A DNA stretch of 42,012 bases. Origin: a bacterium. GTDB lineage: Bacteria > Patescibacteriota > Minisyncoccia > Moranbacterales > UBA2206. Shown piece after piece: positions 25,812-34,390 of this stretch. Under the pieces are notes generated by a model. It had not been told where the DNA came from. It worked only from the letters and a program-made list of their open reading frames with translations, and made no database searches. The stretch spans positions 1 to 42,012 of the forward strand of contig JAJYDG010000005.1 in the NCBI GenBank assembly GCA_021777675.1, read 5' to 3'. The translations under genes were made by a program, and so were the position numbers. The stretch's first letter is position 1; every line of letters begins with the position of its first letter.

Positions 25812-26058
25812 TTTTTCTTTGTGGGCGTTGCCCTTGGAAATTAAAAAGCGAATATTTTTAATTTACCTTAGGAGTACAATAGGTTTTGAATGCGCTGATT
25901 TTTACAGACACTTGCCAAAAAATAAAAAGATGATTATACTGTAAAAGTAACAGAATCTTTAATTTGATATAAATCCTAGTTAGTTCATATTCTCGCAAGA
26001 ATCGCCCGAATGTGTTTTGGTGCGGTTTATTGCGTTTTTTGTTTTATTTAGCAAGAAA
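25812..26058 (+). other. 247-base gap with promoter for the complex I-like operon
   Basis: No gene is supported. The main element is the promoter at 25912-25940. The leader from about 25947 to the ATG at 26059 is ~110 bases; no strong hairpin was seen in it. Confidence 0.5.
25912..25940 (+). promoter_or_regulatory. Promoter of the hydrogenase-related operon
   Basis: -35 TTGCCA (25912-25917), a 17-base spacer, and -10 TATACT (25935-25940). Good spacing and box quality. It is the only promoter seen before the six-gene cluster 26059-33337. Confidence 0.65.
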
Positions 26059-26607
26059 ATGTTAAAATTATACTCAAAAATTTTTTCTACGCCAAAGACC
26101 GTAATCGATGCGGATGAATTATTTGTCGATAATGACATAGAAATAATCGGAAAGCGTTTGACAAAAAAAATAAAAGATATTTTTCAAGGATCGTTGGCTA
26201 TTCGCGAGGTTGATGCTGGATCAACCAATGCTTGTGAGCAAGAATTAACAGCTTTGAGTAATGCTTATTATGATGTCGAGAGATTTGGAATTCATTTTGT
26301 TGCATCTCCCAGGCACGCGGATATGCTTATGGTTACAGGGGCTGTTTCGCGTAATATGCGACAAGCGCTGATAAAAACATACGAAGCAACGCCTAATCCA
26401 AAAATTGTAGTGGCAGTAGGCGATGATGCGATTGATGGCGGAATATTCAAAGGTTCATATGCTGTTTTGGATGGAGTGGATAAGGTTATTCCTGTTGATT
26501 TTAAGATTCCCGGTGATCCGCCTTCTCCAAGAATAATCATCCAGCATCTTCTGATAATTCTTGATTTGGTTGAAAAGAGAAATAGAGAAAGCGTAAAAAA
26601 AGTGTAA
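26059..26607 (+). CDS. NuoB/HyfI-like small subunit lacking three of four cluster cysteines
   Basis: 182 residues from ATG 26059; the track's TTG start at 26017 adds a doubtful hydrophobic leader. The protein clearly belongs to the 20-kDa/[NiFe]-hydrogenase small-subunit family: SPRHADMLMVTGAVSRNM, PKIVVAVGDDAIDGGIF, YAVLDGVDKVIPVDFKIPG. In this family a [4Fe-4S] cluster is held by Cys in SCNxC, GxCA and PGCPP. Here the same places read GSTNACE (only Cys59 left, Thr56 first), GDDA (Asp123) and PGDPP (Asp153). A normal cluster therefore cannot form. The fold-related residues are kept, so the gene is not decayed. It is the first gene of the six-gene operon. It is best compared with Ehr-type complexes. 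Confidence 0.85.
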   Translation: MLKLYSKIFSTPKTVIDADELFVDNDIEIIGKRLTKKIKDIFQGSLAIREVDAGSTNACEQELTALSNAYYDVERFGIHFVASPRHADMLMVTGAVSRNMRQALIKTYEATPNPKIVVAVGDDAIDGGIFKGSYAVLDGVDKVIPVDFKIPGDPPSPRIIIQHLLIILDLVEKRNRESVKKV

Positions 26608-26639
26608 AGTAAGTTTTTTTTGTTTCAATATTATTAAAT

Positions 26640-28670
26640 ATGTTTAATCTCAGTTTTGTTCAAATGAATTTTTTTATAGCATTATTGCTGTTATTTGTTG
26701 GTGCATTTGGTTCATTGTTGATGAGAAAAAATGATGCATTAGCAAACTGGTGGAGTGGTGTAGCGACAATTTTTGCAGCTTGTTTTGGTCTGGTAGTAGC
26801 TATTTCGGTGTTATTTTTTGGAATGACTGCTAATTTTAGCACTAATTCCACATTGCCACTTTTAACTTTTTCCTTAAAAATCGATCCTCTTTCCGCTTTT
26901 TTTATCTTCATTATTTCATTGATTACAATCCTAGCTTCTGTTTATGGCATTGATTATGTAAAACATTATTATGGAAAATACAGCATTGGAACGTTAGGAT
27001 TTTTTTATAATTTATTTATTGCCGGAATGCTTCTGGTTGTAAGTGCTAATAATGCTTTATTTTTTTTGATTGCTTGGGAGATTATGTCTTGCGCTTCTTA
27101 TTTCTTGGTTATTTTTGAAAACAAGGAAATTGACAATGTGCGCGCTGGCTCTCTTTATTTTATTATGACGCATATCGGCACGGCTTTTATTATGCTGGCA
27201 TTTTTGTTGCTTTATTCAGTTAGCGGTTCTTTTGATTTTACGATAATAAAAGAAAACATAGCAACAATTTCACCATTAATGAAGGATGCTGTTTTTTTAT
27301 TGATGTTGATCGGGTTTGGCACTAAAGCGGGAATCATCCCTTTGCATATTTGGCTTCCTCGCGCACATCCGGCTGCTCCGAGTCATGTCAGCGCTTTGAT
27401 GTCCGGAGTTATGATTAAGACCGGAATTTATATGTTTATTCGAATTTTTATTGATATTTTACCTGGTATTCCATTATGGTGGGGTGAACTGGTTTTGTTA
27501 ATTGGCGCTATCTCTGCCTTGGCGGGAGTTTTGTATGCGCTTACCGAACATGATATCAAAAGACTTTTGGCATACCATAGTATTGAAAATATCGGAATTA
27601 TTCTTTTAGGCGTAGGAAGCTCTTTGATTTTTTTAGCGCTTAATCTTAAAGAATTAGCAATATTAGCTTTAGCGGCGGCACTTTTTCATACATTAAATCA
27701 TGCAATTTTTAAATCATTGCTTTTCATGGGTGCCGGATCGGTTATATCAAAAATGCATACTCGCAATATGGAAGAGTATGGCGGTATAATCAAATATATG
27801 CCACAAACCGCTTTCTTTTTTTTAATCGGGTCATTAGCCATTTCTGCTTTTCCTCCGTTTAATGGATTTTTTAGCGAGTGGATGACTTATCAATCTTTGT
27901 TTTCCGGCATTGCCAATTTAAACAGTTCAGCTCAATGGATATTCATTTTAGCGACTGGCTCATTGGCTTTTACCGGCGGATTGGCAGCGGCTTGTTTTGT
28001 TAAGGCTTTTGGGGCGATATTTTTGGCTCGTTCGCGTAATAAAAAAGTTGAAAAAATAAAAGAATCAGGCGTGATGTCGCGTATCGGTATGGGCGTATTG
28101 GCGATTTTCACTTTGATTTTGGGAGTTTTTGCTTATCCCGTTTCAAAAACCATACTAAATATTGTCAGTAGCTTGACTGTTTTTGATGCAAAAAATATTG
28201 AAAGCAACTCAATTATTCAAGCAAAAATGGAAAGCGTTTCAATGCCGGTAATTTTTTTGAGTATTGCGTGTGTGCTAATCTTAGTATTTATTTCAATCTA
28301 TGCGTTAACAAAAAAAAGAAAAGTGCAGACTGGTTGTACTTGGGATTGCGGAACGGAACTTACTCCAAGAATGGAGATTACAGCAACCGGATTTTCTCGT
28401 TCAATAGTGGTTATTTTTCGAGGGATTTTGCGTCCGACAAAACAAAATACGATTGAATATCGCGATGCCGATATGCGCTATTTTGCCAAGAAAAATCTAG
28501 TTAGACTAGAAATTGAGGACTTTTGGGGAACATGTATTTATTATCCGGCGCAAAATTTAGTGGCAAGGATGTCTAATCGGGTTAAATTATTGCAAAGTGG
28601 AAATATCAATGCCTATATTTTATATATTTTTTTAACATTGTTATTATTGTTATTATTTTTAGTAATTTGA
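26640..28670 (+). CDS. HyfB/NuoL-like antiporter-type membrane subunit
   Basis: 676 residues with about 16 hydrophobic segments. The proton-pumping residues of the Mrp/NuoL family are in place: Glu147 in FFLIAWEIMS, Lys229 and His236 in GFGTKAGIIPLHIWLP, His249 in AAPSHVSALMSG, Lys307 in HDIKRLLAYHS. The C-terminal part has TWDCGTELTPRMEITATGFS and the last membrane helix after LLQSGNINAYILYIF, both typical of HyfB/HycC of group 4 hydrogenases rather than NuoL. It would translocate H+ or Na+. It starts 32 bases after the small subunit and ends one base before the next gene. Confidence 0.92.
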   Translation: MFNLSFVQMNFFIALLLLFVGAFGSLLMRKNDALANWWSGVATIFAACFGLVVAISVLFFGMTANFSTNSTLPLLTFSLKIDPLSAFFIFIISLITILASVYGIDYVKHYYGKYSIGTLGFFYNLFIAGMLLVVSANNALFFLIAWEIMSCASYFLVIFENKEIDNVRAGSLYFIMTHIGTAFIMLAFLLLYSVSGSFDFTIIKENIATISPLMKDAVFLLMLIGFGTKAGIIPLHIWLPRAHPAAPSHVSALMSGVMIKTGIYMFIRIFIDILPGIPLWWGELVLLIGAISALAGVLYALTEHDIKRLLAYHSIENIGIILLGVGSSLIFLALNLKELAILALAAALFHTLNHAIFKSLLFMGAGSVISKMHTRNMEEYGGIIKYMPQTAFFFLIGSLAISAFPPFNGFFSEWMTYQSLFSGIANLNSSAQWIFILATGSLAFTGGLAAACFVKAFGAIFLARSRNKKVEKIKESGVMSRIGMGVLAIFTLILGVFAYPVSKTILNIVSSLTVFDAKNIESNSIIQAKMESVSMPVIFLSIACVLILVFISIYALTKKRKVQTGCTWDCGTELTPRMEITATGFSRSIVVIFRGILRPTKQNTIEYRDADMRYFAKKNLVRLEIEDFWGTCIYYPAQNLVARMSNRVKLLQSGNINAYILYIFLTLLLLLLFLVI

Positions 28671-28671
28671 T

Positions 28672-29607
28672 ATGAATATTTTAACAATTATTATCTGGAC
28701 AATTCAGTTAATTTTAATTCCGGTTGTTTCGCCACTATTTATCGGATTGGTGCGAAAAGTTAAAGCGCGTTTGCAAAATAGAGCTGGCGCGAGTATTTTT
28801 CAACCTTATTTTGATCTTTGGAAATTGTTTCATAAAGATGAAGTTATCAGTACTGACGCTTCTTGGATTTTTCGTTTTGCGCCATATCTTATTTTTTCCA
28901 TCACATTGATTATCGGTGCCAGTATTCCGCTTTTCAGCACAGTGTTTTCGAATAATAATATGAGCGATTTTTTAGTTATTGTATATTTGGTGGCACTAAG
29001 TACATTTTTTTTGGCGCTTGCCGGGATGGATGTTGGTAGCGGATTTGGCGGATTTGGTGCGAGTCGGGAAATGACGGTTGCAGCGCTAACCGAAGGTGGC
29101 TTAATCCTTTCTCTTTTGGCGGTGGCCTTTGTTGCTCACTCGACTAATCTTTTTGTTATCTCTGAGTTTATTTCGCAAATGTCTTTATTTTCGTTCGCTC
29201 CGATTTTTTTAGCTTTTTCCGCTTTTGTGATTGCGATGCTTGCGGAAACCGGTCGTTTTCCCTTTGATAATCCTGCCACACATTTGGAATTGACAATGAT
29301 TCACGAAGCGATGATTTTGGAGTATTCCGGCAAGCGTCTTGCACTGATCGAATGGTCCGCTGCTAATAAGTTTTTAATTTTTTTGGCGCTGGGAGTCAAT
29401 TTATTTTTTCCATGGGGAATTTCCGGAACATTTGATTTGCAAAATAGCATATTTGCGCTAATAATATTTTTTGTAAAAATCGGTGCAATGAGCTTGGCTG
29501 TGGCTGTTTTGGAATCAACTATCGCTAAAATGCGTTACTTTCGCTTGCCTGATCTTTTGGCTGTATCTTTTATTTTAAGTGTAATTGCCATTATTTTAAT
29601 AATTTAA
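28672..29607 (+). CDS. HyfC/NuoH-like membrane subunit
   Basis: 311 residues with about eight membrane segments. Motifs of the NuoH/HycD/HyfC family: VKARLQNRAGAS near the start, GFGGFGASREMTVAALTEGG, and AETGRFPFDNPATHLELTMIHEAM, which carries the conserved charged cytoplasmic loop at the junction with the soluble arm. The Glu-rich HLELTMIHEAMILEYSG is the group 4 hydrogenase version. In complex I this subunit couples the quinone site to the pump; in hydrogenases it anchors the catalytic subunits. All of these residues are intact. Confidence 0.93.
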   Translation: MNILTIIIWTIQLILIPVVSPLFIGLVRKVKARLQNRAGASIFQPYFDLWKLFHKDEVISTDASWIFRFAPYLIFSITLIIGASIPLFSTVFSNNNMSDFLVIVYLVALSTFFLALAGMDVGSGFGGFGASREMTVAALTEGGLILSLLAVAFVAHSTNLFVISEFISQMSLFSFAPIFLAFSAFVIAMLAETGRFPFDNPATHLELTMIHEAMILEYSGKRLALIEWSAANKFLIFLALGVNLFFPWGISGTFDLQNSIFALIIFFVKIGAMSLAVAVLESTIAKMRYFRLPDLLAVSFILSVIAIILII

Positions 29608-29613
29608 AATTTT

Positions 29614-30273
29614 ATGAATTCCAATTTCGCGCAAATTTTATTTTTTTTGGAAGCGATGATTTTTTCAGCAGTGATTTTCATGCATCTTTCCAAGAAAAGC
29701 TCATCGGTAGTTAATTTATATATGTTGCAATCTTTGGCAATTTCAATTTTATTATTTAGTTCCATATTGGAAAAACCATCATTGCTGTTGATTTTTGCTG
29801 TAGGGATAACTTTTGCGGTTAAAGCAATAATTGCTCCGCATTTTTTTCATAAACTAATTTCCAGAAACCACATAAAATTTTCTGCCAGTACATATTTAAA
29901 CGCCCCATTTACTTTAATTGTCGTAGCTGTTTTAACAGCTTTTTCCTATTCGCATTTATTTCATCCGCTTACAGTTATTTTTTCTCAAAATGCCGATGCT
30001 ATTCTTCTAGCTGTTGCCACTATGCTAAGTTCTATTTTTCTTTTGATCAATCGCAAAGGAGCGATGTCGCAAGCGATCGGAATTTTATCATTGGAGAACG
30101 CTATTGTTTCGTTCACTTTTTTAGCTGGATTGGAGCAATCCCCAGCTTTGCAATTGGGAATTATTTTTGATATTCTAGCGTGGATATTTATTGCCGGCAC
30201 CGTAGCTATGATGATATTTCGACATATCGATTCGTTTGATGTAAGCAGTATGAAACGTTTAAAAGAAGATTAA
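29614..30273 (+). CDS. HyfE-like membrane subunit
   Basis: 219 residues, about six or seven hydrophobic helices and almost no soluble part. GITFAVKAIIAPHFFHKLISR is the signature of HyfE-type subunits (a fused, NuoK-related protein). The Lys in FAVKA is conserved in the family. The gene is six bases after the HyfC-like gene and 10 before the HyfF-like gene, the same order as in hyf operons minus hyfD. Confidence 0.85.
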   Translation: MNSNFAQILFFLEAMIFSAVIFMHLSKKSSSVVNLYMLQSLAISILLFSSILEKPSLLLIFAVGITFAVKAIIAPHFFHKLISRNHIKFSASTYLNAPFTLIVVAVLTAFSYSHLFHPLTVIFSQNADAILLAVATMLSSIFLLINRKGAMSQAIGILSLENAIVSFTFLAGLEQSPALQLGIIFDILAWIFIAGTVAMMIFRHIDSFDVSSMKRLKED

Positions 30274-30283
30274 TTTAAAAAAT

Positions 30284-31729
30284 ATGATGCTATTATTGAT
30301 TATTTTGACACCATTGGTTGCTTCGGGACTCTCGTTCTTTGTTAGAAAAAACAGTACTGTTTTTTTAAATACCGTGGCTGTCTTATCAGCTTCAATAGAG
30401 TTAATCGCAGTTATGAATATTGTTTTTTCTGTTGTTAAAAACGGTGAATATGTCCTAGCTTCTTATTTGGCGGTTAATTCAATCGGAGCTATTTTAATTA
30501 TGATTATTGCTATAGTTAATTTTTCAGCTTCAATTTATTCTGTTAGCTACCTAAAAGTGGAGGTTCGTAAGGAAATAATCGGAATTTCTCGTGTGCGGGA
30601 GTATTTTTCGTTGTTGCATTTATTTGTTTTGGCGATGTTTTTTTCTGTTATCACGACAAATCCGATTTTAATGTGGATTGCCATTGAAGCAACAACACTT
30701 TCCACTGTATTTTTAATTAGTTTTTATAACAAACCATCAGCTACGGAAGCAACTTGGAAATATATGATTATTAATTCTTTGGGGTTGCTTTTGGGGTTTT
30801 TCGGTACGGTAATTTTTCTTTATCCATCATTGCGTTCTGGTCATCTGGGATTGGTTAACTGGCAAACAATATCGGCTGGCGCCGGAAATTTTGATCCTTT
30901 TGTTGTCAAAATGGCTTTCATTTTTGTTTTAATTGGCTATGGAACAAAAGTGGGTTTTGTTCCTATGCATACTTGGCGTCCCGATGCTTATAGTAAAGCG
31001 CCCATTCCAATCGTTGCCTTGCTTTCAGGATCACTTTTGAATGTGGCTTTTTTAGCGATACTAAGGTTTAAAATGGTTGTTGATTTGGCAGTTGGGAAAG
31101 ATTTTTCACAAAACTTATTTATTTTTTTCGGAATTATTTCCATTGTAATTGCATCTTTTCATATGTTTGGGCAAAAAAATTATAAACGCTTATTGGCTTA
31201 TTCCAGCATTGAACATGCCGGAATTTTGGCGCTTGGTTTTGGCTTTGGCGGGTTGGCAATATTTGCCACCCTATTACACATGATCTATCATGCGTTGGTA
31301 AAGTCGATTTTATTCCTTTCGGCCGGTAATGTTTTTTTGAAATACAGTTCTACAAAAATTTCTAAAATAAAAGGAATGCTTGAGGTGTTGCCTGTTACGG
31401 GAGTGCTTTTTATGATTGGGTTTCTAGCAATTGTCGGCGTCCCACCTTTTGGAACATTCCTGACGGAATTTACTATTTTTTCCGTTGGAATAAAGACGCA
31501 TCCCATTGTTGTGATTATTGCATTAATGGCATTGATTTTGGTTTTTGTCAGTTTTCTCCGGCATATTTCTGGAATGCTTTTTAATGAAAAAGAAGAGGGT
31601 ATTTCTATTGGAGAATCTGGCGCCTGGACGACATTACCTATTTTATTTTTGGTCGTAATATTTATTTTTTTGAGTTTTTATTTGCCACAGTTTATGACTA
31701 TATTGCTTAATAAGGCAGCGTTATTTTAG
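30284..31729 (+). CDS. HyfF/NuoN-like antiporter-type membrane subunit
   Basis: 481 residues, about 14 membrane helices. Key residues of the pump family remain: Glu135 in LMWIAIEATTLS, Lys222 and His229 in GYGTKVGFVPMHTW, Lys238 in YSKAPIPIVALLSG, Lys301 in QKNYKRLLAYSSIE. The pattern MWIAIEATTLSTVFLISFYN is characteristic of HyfF of group 4 complexes. With the HyfB-like protein, the complex has two antiporter-like channels. Confidence 0.92.
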   Translation: MMLLLIILTPLVASGLSFFVRKNSTVFLNTVAVLSASIELIAVMNIVFSVVKNGEYVLASYLAVNSIGAILIMIIAIVNFSASIYSVSYLKVEVRKEIIGISRVREYFSLLHLFVLAMFFSVITTNPILMWIAIEATTLSTVFLISFYNKPSATEATWKYMIINSLGLLLGFFGTVIFLYPSLRSGHLGLVNWQTISAGAGNFDPFVVKMAFIFVLIGYGTKVGFVPMHTWRPDAYSKAPIPIVALLSGSLLNVAFLAILRFKMVVDLAVGKDFSQNLFIFFGIISIVIASFHMFGQKNYKRLLAYSSIEHAGILALGFGFGGLAIFATLLHMIYHALVKSILFLSAGNVFLKYSSTKISKIKGMLEVLPVTGVLFMIGFLAIVGVPPFGTFLTEFTIFSVGIKTHPIVVIIALMALILVFVSFLRHISGMLFNEKEEGISIGESGAWTTLPILFLVVIFIFLSFYLPQFMTILLNKAALF

Positions 31730-31759
31730 CTTATTATAATCTATTACCATATTTATATT

Positions 31760-33337
31760 ATGAATCAAAAAGAAGTTAGTAAAAAATATATTCCATCCGG
31801 ATTTGATGTCGAAGAACATAAAAATATTTTTAGTTTTATTGTTTCAAAAGAAGAAATTGGGACCGTTTGCCAAAAACTTTATTTTAATGATGGCTTGCAA
31901 TTAAAAACGATTACAGCTATTGATGAAAAAAAAAGTTTTGGACGGTATCGTATTTTTTATGTTTTTGGAATTCCCGGAGAAAATATTTTTTTAGCTCCTT
32001 ATATTGTTGTAAAAAATTCAGAAGAATTCCCATCAATTACAAAAATAATTCATGAGGCGTCTTCCTATGAAAGGAAAATATGGTCATTTTTTGGTCTTAA
32101 ACCGATTGAGCATCCTAATTTAAGAGGCATGCTTTTGCATGAAAATTGGCCTAATGACGTTTTTCCTTTGCGAAAAGATTTTGATTGGAGGAATCGACCG
32201 AAAGAGGCGACCGGAAAATATGAATTTTCAAAAGTGGACGGAGAGGGGATTTATGAAGTTCCTGTCGGTCCGGTGCATGCCGGAATTATTGAGCCGGGAC
32301 ATTTTCGCTTTAGTGTTGCTGGTGAAGAAGTGCTTAATTTGGAAGCAAAGCTTGGCTATAAACATAAAGGAATTGAAAAATTATTTGAGGTTTTTCCGAT
32401 GGAGGAAAAATTGCGCTTATCAGAAAGAGTTTCCGGAGACACTTCATTCACTCATTCAATGGCTTTTTGTCAAGCGATTGAATCATTTGCTGATGTGTGT
32501 GCTCCGAAGAGGGCACAGCATTTACGGATGTTTTTTTCCGAAATGGAAAGATTGACGAACCATTTTAATGATATTGGATTTATTATGCTTGACGCCGGTT
32601 ATAGTTTTGGAGGAAGCAATTGCGCACGTATTCGTGAAAAAATTATGCAATGGAATGAAAAATTAACAGATAGTCGTTTTTTGCGGGGTGTTAATGTGTT
32701 CGGTGGAGTAATGAAAAATATTTCAGCGGAAACATGTCATAAATTAAAAAAAGATCTAGAAAAAATTCAAAAAGATTTTTCACAGGTAATCAGTATTTCC
32801 GGGGAAAGCAGTTCATTGTTAAATCGTTTGCAAAGTACGGGAAAATTGGATCGTCAAATTGCGATTGACCATGGCGTGCTGGGTGTTGCCGGAAGAGCTA
32901 TTGGATTGGAGCATGATGCTAGAATTGAATATCCCTACGCTGATTACGCTTCTATGCATTTTGAAATGGCGTTGGAAAAAAGCGGTGATGTGTATGCCAG
33001 GTTGCATGTTCGTATTAAAGAAGTCCATTCTTCAATGAAAATTTTAAAACAAATCTTAGATAAATTAACAGAAAAAGAAAATTCAGAGATTATTACTGAA
33101 AAAGAGTTTGTTTTTGCTAAAAATAGTTTATCGATTGGCATTGCGGAAGGCTGGAGAGGAGAAATTGTTTATTTTGTGGTTACTGATGAAAAAGGAAATA
33201 TCTCCAGAGTTGATGTGCGTGATCCTTCTTTTGTGAATTGGACGGTTTTGGGTTATGCCGGAAGAGATAATATTATTCCTGATTTTCCCTTAATCAACAA
33301 GAGCTTTAATTTGTCATATTCGGGTAATGATTTATAG
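31760..33337 (+). CDS. HyfG/NuoCD-like large subunit without NiFe ligands
   Basis: 525 residues. The first ~150 form a NuoC-like 30-kDa domain (YERKIWSFFGLKPIEHPNLR), followed by the large-subunit domain (VPVGPVHAGIIEPGHFRFSV, GYKHKGIEKLF). The first metal motif, RxCGxC in hydrogenases, reads ERVSGDTSFTHS (Ser225 and Thr228 replace Cys). The C-terminal motif DPCxxC reads NLSYSGNDL (Ser519 and Gly522 replace Cys). No NiFe centre can be bound. The protein ends at that motif, so there is no C-terminal extension for maturation-peptidase cleavage and none is needed. It is the last gene of the six-gene cluster. It is not a NuoD of ordinary complex I, because FRFSVAGEE and the membrane partners are of the hydrogenase type. 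Confidence 0.9.
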   Translation: MNQKEVSKKYIPSGFDVEEHKNIFSFIVSKEEIGTVCQKLYFNDGLQLKTITAIDEKKSFGRYRIFYVFGIPGENIFLAPYIVVKNSEEFPSITKIIHEASSYERKIWSFFGLKPIEHPNLRGMLLHENWPNDVFPLRKDFDWRNRPKEATGKYEFSKVDGEGIYEVPVGPVHAGIIEPGHFRFSVAGEEVLNLEAKLGYKHKGIEKLFEVFPMEEKLRLSERVSGDTSFTHSMAFCQAIESFADVCAPKRAQHLRMFFSEMERLTNHFNDIGFIMLDAGYSFGGSNCARIREKIMQWNEKLTDSRFLRGVNVFGGVMKNISAETCHKLKKDLEKIQKDFSQVISISGESSSLLNRLQSTGKLDRQIAIDHGVLGVAGRAIGLEHDARIEYPYADYASMHFEMALEKSGDVYARLHVRIKEVHSSMKILKQILDKLTEKENSEIITEKEFVFAKNSLSIGIAEGWRGEIVYFVVTDEKGNISRVDVRDPSFVNWTVLGYAGRDNIIPDFPLINKSFNLSYSGNDL

Positions 33338-33372: not shown

Positions 33373-33424
33373 TTAGTTTGGTTTTGGTTTTTTGACAACT
33401 TAATAAAAAAGGAGAAAATTGTTT

Positions 33425-34348
33425 ATGTGGTGCGAAACGAATTTGCAAGAAAGAGTTTTATCGACCGTTCCGTTTAGATTTAAAAATATTCACAATTGTT
33501 CAGCAGTAGCTATTCTTCCTCAGAGTTACAATTTTACAGCCCCGATTATTCAATGCATGGAAGATTCTTTTGGACACAATGCCTTTGATACATTTGTCGT
33601 TCCGGGATTTTCCAGCAAGCTTTTCAAGGAAAGTAAAACTATTTTGGAGACGCTTGATCTTTCCTATGAAAAGCATTTTGTTGAAGAGGTGGTTATTTTT
33701 CAGCATACTGATTTTCATAACAATGGACATTCAACCAGATTTGTGTCTGCAATAGAAGAGGACTGCTATCACAAAAACGGATTAATTTCTTCTCTCAAGA
33801 TGCTTCGTAGGCGCTACCCAAATCTTAATGTAAGATTGGTGTATGTGCGGTTAATTGATGAACAGCGAGAAATGGAATTTTCGGAAATATTTGAGTGTGG
33901 ACGGGAAAGAGTGCGTATGATTGCACCTTATAAATTTAAGGGAGTCTTAGGGTGTGATGTCGCGGTTATTATGTGTTTGGATTTTAGATTCAGAAAAGAA
34001 AGTCGTGCTTGTGTTCGCGATTCTTTGAAAATTCCAAATTTCGATTTAATCGGGATTCCGGGAGCGACAAAGAGCTTTCTTGAAAATGCGAAAGTTGCAT
34101 GGAAAGCTGTCAATGTGTCATATGAAAAACATAATTGTCGGAAATTTATCGTCATCCATCATATGGATTGCGGTGCTTATGGAGGATCATCGGTTTTTTT
34201 AAATGCTTTTATGGAAGAGTCATATCATTATGAGCAGATGCGCTCTTTTGAAAAAAAAATGTTTGAGCAATATCAAGATGTTAAGGTAGAGAGAATTTTT
34301 GCTCGCTTGACGGATGATCGAACAAAAATTCAGTTCATTGAATATTAA
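33425..34348 (+). CDS. Tandem beta-carbonic-anhydrase-like protein (active-site residues only in C-terminal half)
   Basis: 307 residues from ATG 33425; GGAG at 33411-33414 serves as Shine-Dalgarno, and the track's TTG at 33419 lies too close to it. The C-terminal half (about 176-307) shows the beta-carbonic anhydrase zinc motifs: CLDFR (Cys184, Asp186, Arg188) and HHMDCGAYGG (His246, Cys249). The N-terminal half (about 24-150) repeats the same layout: AVAILPQSYNF, FDTFVVPGF, LSYEKHFVEEVVIFQHTDFHNNG. There the metal and catalytic residues are Pro32, Ser34, Asn36 and Phe97; only His94 remains. It is thus an internal duplication with one degenerate half. The whole is short for a carbonic anhydrase (each unit ~150 residues), so activity is unproven. 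It follows the hydrogenase-related operon. Confidence 0.75.
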   Translation: MWCETNLQERVLSTVPFRFKNIHNCSAVAILPQSYNFTAPIIQCMEDSFGHNAFDTFVVPGFSSKLFKESKTILETLDLSYEKHFVEEVVIFQHTDFHNNGHSTRFVSAIEEDCYHKNGLISSLKMLRRRYPNLNVRLVYVRLIDEQREMEFSEIFECGRERVRMIAPYKFKGVLGCDVAVIMCLDFRFRKESRACVRDSLKIPNFDLIGIPGATKSFLENAKVAWKAVNVSYEKHNCRKFIVIHHMDCGAYGGSSVFLNAFMEESYHYEQMRSFEKKMFEQYQDVKVERIFARLTDDRTKIQFIEY

Positions 34349-34357
34349 TTTATTATT

Positions 34358-34390
34358 AGCCACCTTGAAATATGCAAGGTGGCTTTCTAT
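34358..34390 (+). terminator. Terminator-like hairpin after the carbonic-anhydrase-like gene
   Basis: AGCCACCTTG (34358-34367) and CAAGGTGGCT (34375-34384) form a perfect 10-bp stem with a seven-base loop, followed by TTCTAT. The stem is strong and the T run is imperfect. It separates the gene from the rpmF promoter. Confidence 0.75.

Follow-up and report, generated by a model that had tools for sequence, protein, structure and literature searches.

A tandem Pro_CA_2 protein with one predicted active site, encoded next to an Ehr operon, suggests a link between carbonic anhydrases and the ion circuit of a CPR bacterium

A gene encoding a tandem Pro_CA_2 protein of 307 aa (positions 33425-34348, plus strand) is found immediately downstream of an operon encoding a complex I-like Ehr (energy-converting-hydrogenase-related) complex in the window, i.e., the whole stretch of 42,012 nucleotides of a tiny uncultured bacterium analysed here. 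The explanation that best accounts for the data, to which we assign a probability of about one in two, is that this protein is a carbonic anhydrase (CA) with one active site that works with the ion circuit of the cell. An earlier note on this DNA had considered such a layout to be without a known example among carbonic anhydrases of this size, but CsoSCA and its shorter 'non-cso' relatives provide a precedent (PMC11086599), and it is the genomic company of the tandem CA that is novel. Our results suggest that the Ehr pump of the window may be linked to CO2 chemistry instead of to electrons.

The open reading frame of 307 aa starts with an ATG at 33425, immediately preceded by AGGAG, and an alternative in-frame TTG at 33419 is also possible. 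The encoded protein comprises an N-terminal half with a pseudo-active site (33425-33934, plus strand) and a C-terminal half in which the beta-CA-type motifs CLDFR and HHMDCG are intact (33935-34348, plus strand; residues C184-x-D186-x-R188 and H246-x-D248-C249). When the two halves were compared by BLASTP, they aligned without gaps over 136 positions (71.6 bits, 26% identity), the repeat unit being a domain of ~140 aa present in two gap-free copies. In Pfam, both halves matched PF20393 (Pro_CA_2, 'Putative carbonic anhydrase'), the C-half with 3.4e-14 and 53.6 bits and the N-half with 5.4e-7 and 30.3 bits, barely above the curated cut-off of 30 bits; the whole protein scored 79.7 bits, and the same Pfam search gave no match to PF20686 (CsoSCA_cat). 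These results bear out the earlier note, which had proposed an internally duplicated mini-domain of the carbonic anhydrase family in a CPR host, with the zinc and dyad motifs in the C-half and the Cys, Asp, Arg and Cys missing from the N-half.

At the structural level, an hhalign comparison with E. coli Can/CynT aligned both motifs in thin alignments (E 2.8e-4, probability 41%), the best match to a solved structure in the PDB was weak (0.03), and AlphaFold run on the single tandem sequence gave a pLDDT of 36. The pseudo-dimer fold is predicted from profile similarity and by analogy with the CsoSCA precedent, and we consider it very likely that the tandem protein is a CA pseudo-dimer with one active site. 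Such a fold would make this protein a second, independent evolution of the one-active-site CA pseudo-dimer.

We compared six tandem proteins, which come from four genera in three families. Residues C184, D186, R188, H246, D248 and C249, which include the zinc ligands and the Asp-Arg dyad, were invariant in all six, with the exception of one D to E substitution. In the N-half of the window's protein, Pro, Ser, Asn and Phe take the places of the first Cys, Asp, Arg and second Cys, respectively, and the same positions are occupied by P/S, S/N/A, N/Q/K and F/A in the set of six. Since neither the two cysteines nor the Asp-Arg dyad survive in any of the N-halves (replaced in 6/6), conservation of the dead half is a trait of the subfamily. 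The N-half retains the H of the zinc motif, and its HTDFH segment contains an extra, invariant His, the corresponding residue of the catalytic half being Gly or Ala. Identity among relatives is slightly lower in the N-half than in the C-half; in a comparison with an 88%-identical relative, dN/dS was 0.05 over the first 65 codons of the N-half, whereas part of the C-half gave 0.13 and HyfG gave 0.10. Judging from these sequences, the N-half is conserved and under purifying selection, and is not a decaying remnant. The half-to-half alignment and the purifying selection rule out a chance tandem-like open reading frame or a decaying pseudogene.

The distribution of single-domain and tandem forms, which the earlier note had proposed to examine, was determined by a class-wide search. 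Full tandem proteins were found in 5 of 384 genomes, all from the order of the window, and all other matches were single-domain proteins that aligned to the C-half. A phylum-wide search did not reveal further tandem proteins, and the viral contigs searched yielded no relatives. In a maximum-likelihood tree, the N-halves formed one clade (100/100) and the C-halves another (90/80), both separate from 36 single-domain proteins (99/94). This topology points to a single duplication followed by decay of the active site in the first copy. Two adjacent single-domain Pro_CA_2 matches were observed in two genomes of the phylum, G658 (C10:106396-107201) and G659 (C11:10549-11443), and it is possible that these pairs represent independent steps towards a tandem form. 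The order includes Candidatus Moraniibacteriota, since genome G081 of the order was identical to DNVR01000016.1, a contig of that group, at three sampled 300-base stretches.

Six genes located immediately 5' of the tandem CA gene (26017-33337), all on the plus strand, encode a NuoB/HyfI-like small subunit (26017-26607), a HyfB-like antiporter-like subunit (26640-28670), a HyfC/NuoH-like subunit (28672-29607), a HyfE-like membrane subunit (29614-30273), a HyfF-like antiporter-like subunit (30284-31729), and a HyfG-like large subunit of the fused 30 + 49 kDa type (31760-33337). These subunits are Hyf/FHL-like and HyfG is devoid of the NiFe-binding Cys, which assigns the operon to Ehr. A terminator-like hairpin lies directly 3' of the CA gene (34358-34384, plus strand, -16.8 kcal/mol, z -4.1), and only a weak AU-rich hairpin that was not significant (z -1) was detected between HyfG and the CA gene. 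It is thus probable that the CA gene is the final gene of the Ehr unit.

The NiFe Cys of HyfG was absent from all 19 loci of the order (0/19). The small subunit of the window has also lost the Cys of cluster N2, only one Cys being left (STNACE); by eye, the first two ligand positions read STNAC in the window and STNAE in most loci. At two tested positions, the N2 Cys was found in 0/21 loci of the order and in 0/9 loci of other CPR, and was retained in 45 of the 48 remaining loci, the three exceptions being a Methanosarcina MAG, a Melainabacteria MAG, and a duplicate of G081. In the Methanosarcina MAG (L153, 11649-12161) the lost ligands leave GDDA/PGNPP, and in the Melainabacteria MAG (L157, 11539-12084) GDGA/PGNPP. 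The Ehr operon of the window lacks a gene for a ferredoxin-like subunit. The Glu/Lys/His proton-path residues are kept in both antiporter-like subunits, and the dN/dS of HyfG (0.10) indicates purifying selection. The Ehr complex has no recognisable redox centre and retains its ion path. An active hydrogenase or formate hydrogenlyase associated with a CA is ruled out, because the NiFe and N2 ligands are absent.

The loss of metal-binding Cys in the large subunit of CPR Ehr has already been published (Jaffe et al. 2020, PMC7304191), and CPR Ehr was considered in published work to be likely unable to interact with hydrogen. The paper of Jaffe et al. makes no mention of a carbonic anhydrase, and its accessible part does not mention the loss of the N2 Cys of the small subunit. 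The function of CPR Ehr is puzzling, as the full ion-pumping arm is kept and the N2 cluster ligands are missing as well. Its recurrent pairing with CAs from different families provides a concrete, testable partner.

Such a pairing was found in a survey of 94 genomes (that of the window and its relatives), 21 of which contain Ehr. Three of these (G004, G025, and G038) were left out of the adjacency count owing to contig breaks, and a CA adjoins Ehr in 12 of the 18 assessable loci. Three CA families are involved. The tandem Pro_CA_2 gene lies 3' of HyfG in G000, G037, G058, and G069; genes for CsoSCA-like proteins (about 340-380 aa) are located 5' of NuoB in G003, G028, G031, and G037 and 3' of HyfG in G053, G081, and G092; and a gamma-CA is encoded 3' of HyfG in G003, G047, and G087, that of G003 being closest to CcmM (3e-31). 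The CsoSCA-like proteins of G003, G028, G031, G037, and G053 scored above the PF20686 cut-off, and those of G081 and G092, for which the match was below threshold or absent, were placed in this group by aligning them with the other five. On a separate contig of G004 that begins with the tandem gene, the downstream neighbours match those of the window, and on contig L105 (88%-identical) the tandem gene begins after HyfG. Two genomes with an unassigned protein containing a CA-like motif beside Ehr (G009 and G013) were counted as having no CA, and four Ehr loci of the order have no adjacent CA at all (G026, G049, G071, and G085). No adjacent CA was found at the Ehr loci of other CPR groups.

At the level of whole genomes, a tandem, CsoSCA-like or gamma CA was present in 16/21 genomes with Ehr and in 10/73 without (p 1.2e-7), and the inclusion of single-domain CAs gave 16/21 versus 23/73 (p 3e-4); these p-values are nominal because the genomes are related and not independent. 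The adjacency of CA and Ehr is in agreement with the report by Pulsford et al. of non-carboxysomal CsoSCA relatives near hydrogenase genes (PMC11086599). In a Thiobacillus MAG (L164, 11232-13344), a CsoSCA-like gene lies after an Ehr locus whose N2 Cys is intact, showing that the pairing of Ehr and CA is also present outside CPR. Unassigned proteins that carry CA-like motifs (CSDGR..SHEDCG; CSDRH..HAPCG) or resemble such proteins, and that have no Pfam match, occupy the atp/Ehr slot at L048:7285-8076, L079:2-580, and L044:9827-10414, and possibly represent further CA-like families.

Carbonic anhydrases were also found at the ATP synthase operon. Of the 94 genomes, 17 encode a single-domain Pro_CA_2 protein, and the gene is behind the ATP synthase operon in 17/17, including three in which it is close behind atpD and atpC was not called by the crude gene finder, and one in which a GGDEF gene intervenes. 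None of the 21 Ehr genomes carries a single-domain Pro_CA_2 (the chance of zero overlap being 0.008), and Ehr itself frequently occupies the slot after atpC. CA genes beside atp genes were found outside the order in 7/21 loci of the class and in about 12/28 loci of the phylum (~nine families). A link between small CAs and ATP synthase operons across Patescibacteria was undescribed in the literature that was searchable. In one class genome (G206; L201, 464-3448), a single-domain Pro_CA_2 is encoded within the ATP synthase operon, in the atpA/atpG interval. In genomes without a CA, other genes were found in the slot after atpC, namely, that of a small SnoaL-like protein in G005 (L267:1032-1463, by eye) and that of a GGDEF-like protein in G010 (L273:1956-2804), suggesting that this slot is a variable site.

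The presence of both CAs and Ehr at the atp operon suggests a general association of CAs with the ion circuit, of which Ehr is a part, and it is likely that the tandem CA is a functional partner of the Ehr/ATP synthase locus. Part of the linkage may stem from shared position, as the slot after atpC is favoured by Ehr as well as by CA. However, pure hitch-hiking of the CA on the ATP synthase locus is weakened by the lineage of the window and by G037, in which atpC is elsewhere with no CA directly behind it, and Ehr and the tandem CA are kept together.

These loci also bear on a plausible but less likely alternative, namely, that the protein is an ordinary soluble CA used for pH buffering or bicarbonate supply, its proximity to atp and Ehr genes reflecting a co-expressed housekeeping or bioenergetic island and no coupling. 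The 17 single-domain relatives behind an ATP synthase operon without Ehr and the phylum-wide loci that adjoin atp genes fit this explanation, as do two genomes of the window's genus, G002 and G006, where the tandem CA gene lies 3' of the ATP synthase operon and Ehr was not detected, so that the tandem CA can serve without Ehr. However, the repeated recruitment of different CA families to the same slots exceeds what a loose link predicts, Ehr and the tandem CA stay together off the atp operon in two lineages, and the dead N-half is conserved as though it binds something.

Alternatively, the redox-less Ehr may be either a relic or a simple Na+/H+ antiporter of the Mrp type, the adjoining CA being unrelated to its work. 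Ion-path residues are indeed retained by the antiporter-like subunits, and Ehr occurs without an adjacent CA in other CPR groups, but the co-occurrence and adjacency of Ehr with three CA families and, in the case of a relic, the unexpected purifying selection on its subunits make this explanation unlikely. A zinc-binding regulator, or a beta-CA-fold enzyme acting on another substrate (e.g., hydrolysing COS or CS2), is highly improbable: enzymes of this fold are known to have switched substrate, the name of the family carries the qualifier 'putative', and solved structures give weak matches, but no Zn-ligand or dyad residue is missing from the C-half and CcmM-like gamma-CAs, alike solely in CO2 chemistry, fill the same operon position elsewhere.

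Returning to a one-active-site CA that works with the ion circuit, the gene product would be a soluble beta-type carbonic anhydrase folded as a pseudo-dimer. The C-half would hydrate CO2 or dehydrate bicarbonate, and the dead N-half would give the partner surface for which ordinary beta-CA dimers use a second subunit, and may have a docking role. We infer catalytic activity, docking, coupling, and its direction, as well as the pseudo-dimer fold. Most likely, the CA would trade CO2 for bicarbonate and H+ on the cytoplasmic side of the Ehr ion path. By analogy with DAB, CO2 hydration and proton flow via Ehr (and the ATP synthase) could influence each other, and with a CA at the peripheral arm of a redox-less Ehr, CO2/bicarbonate chemistry could replace electrons. 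We propose direct vectorial coupling of CO2 hydration to ion flow only tentatively. We also regard as rather unlikely the broader scenario of a complex I-like machine that lost all its redox function and was repurposed, with interchangeable CAs (tandem Pro_CA_2, CsoSCA-like, and gamma) serving its energy-coupling arm. The outcome would be either an ion pump coupled to CO2/bicarbonate or a vectorial CA that is driven by the pmf and linked to the ATP synthase, in cells that lack RuBisCO. If the coupling were true, CO2/bicarbonate chemistry would offer a non-redox route to drive or use ion gradients without a respiratory chain.

RuBisCO was absent from all 94 genomes searched, making a carbon-concentrating role unlikely in this order and ruling out CO2 concentration for RuBisCO. 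The remaining roles would be pH control, generation of a gradient from fermentation CO2, or bicarbonate supply.

Compared with known systems, the closest domain is the single-domain PF20393 Pro_CA_2 of Patescibacteria (~150 aa), which has the same CxDxR and HxDC motifs, whereas the tandem protein consists of two fused domains with a dead first site. CsoSCA and its 'non-cso' homologues likewise contain a beta-CA domain that has been duplicated and a single zinc site in each pseudo-dimer, and CsoSCA-like genes are found at the Ehr operons of sister genomes; however, they belong to another sequence family, and their catalytic half comes first, whereas it is last in tandem Pro_CA_2. The Ehr of Jaffe et al. 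is the same complex as that encoded by the operon of the window. The combination of a complex I-like machine with a CA module is found in cyanobacterial NDH-1MS with Cup proteins, where CO2 hydration and a complex I-like pump are coupled (cited in PMC13144422), and in plant complex I with gamma-CA, but these carry redox centres, whereas the Ehr of the window is without N2 and NiFe ligands. In DAB, which consists of the beta-CA-fold DabA and the NuoL-like DabB and for which pmf-driven vectorial CO2 hydration was proposed (PMC13144422), DabA inserts a finger into DabB, whereas the window has a small soluble CA and a six-subunit Ehr complex, and no DabA-like gene was seen in its Ehr operon. In both cases, a beta-CA-type protein is paired with a NuoL-like proton-conducting membrane protein, the pairing being a genomic one in the window.
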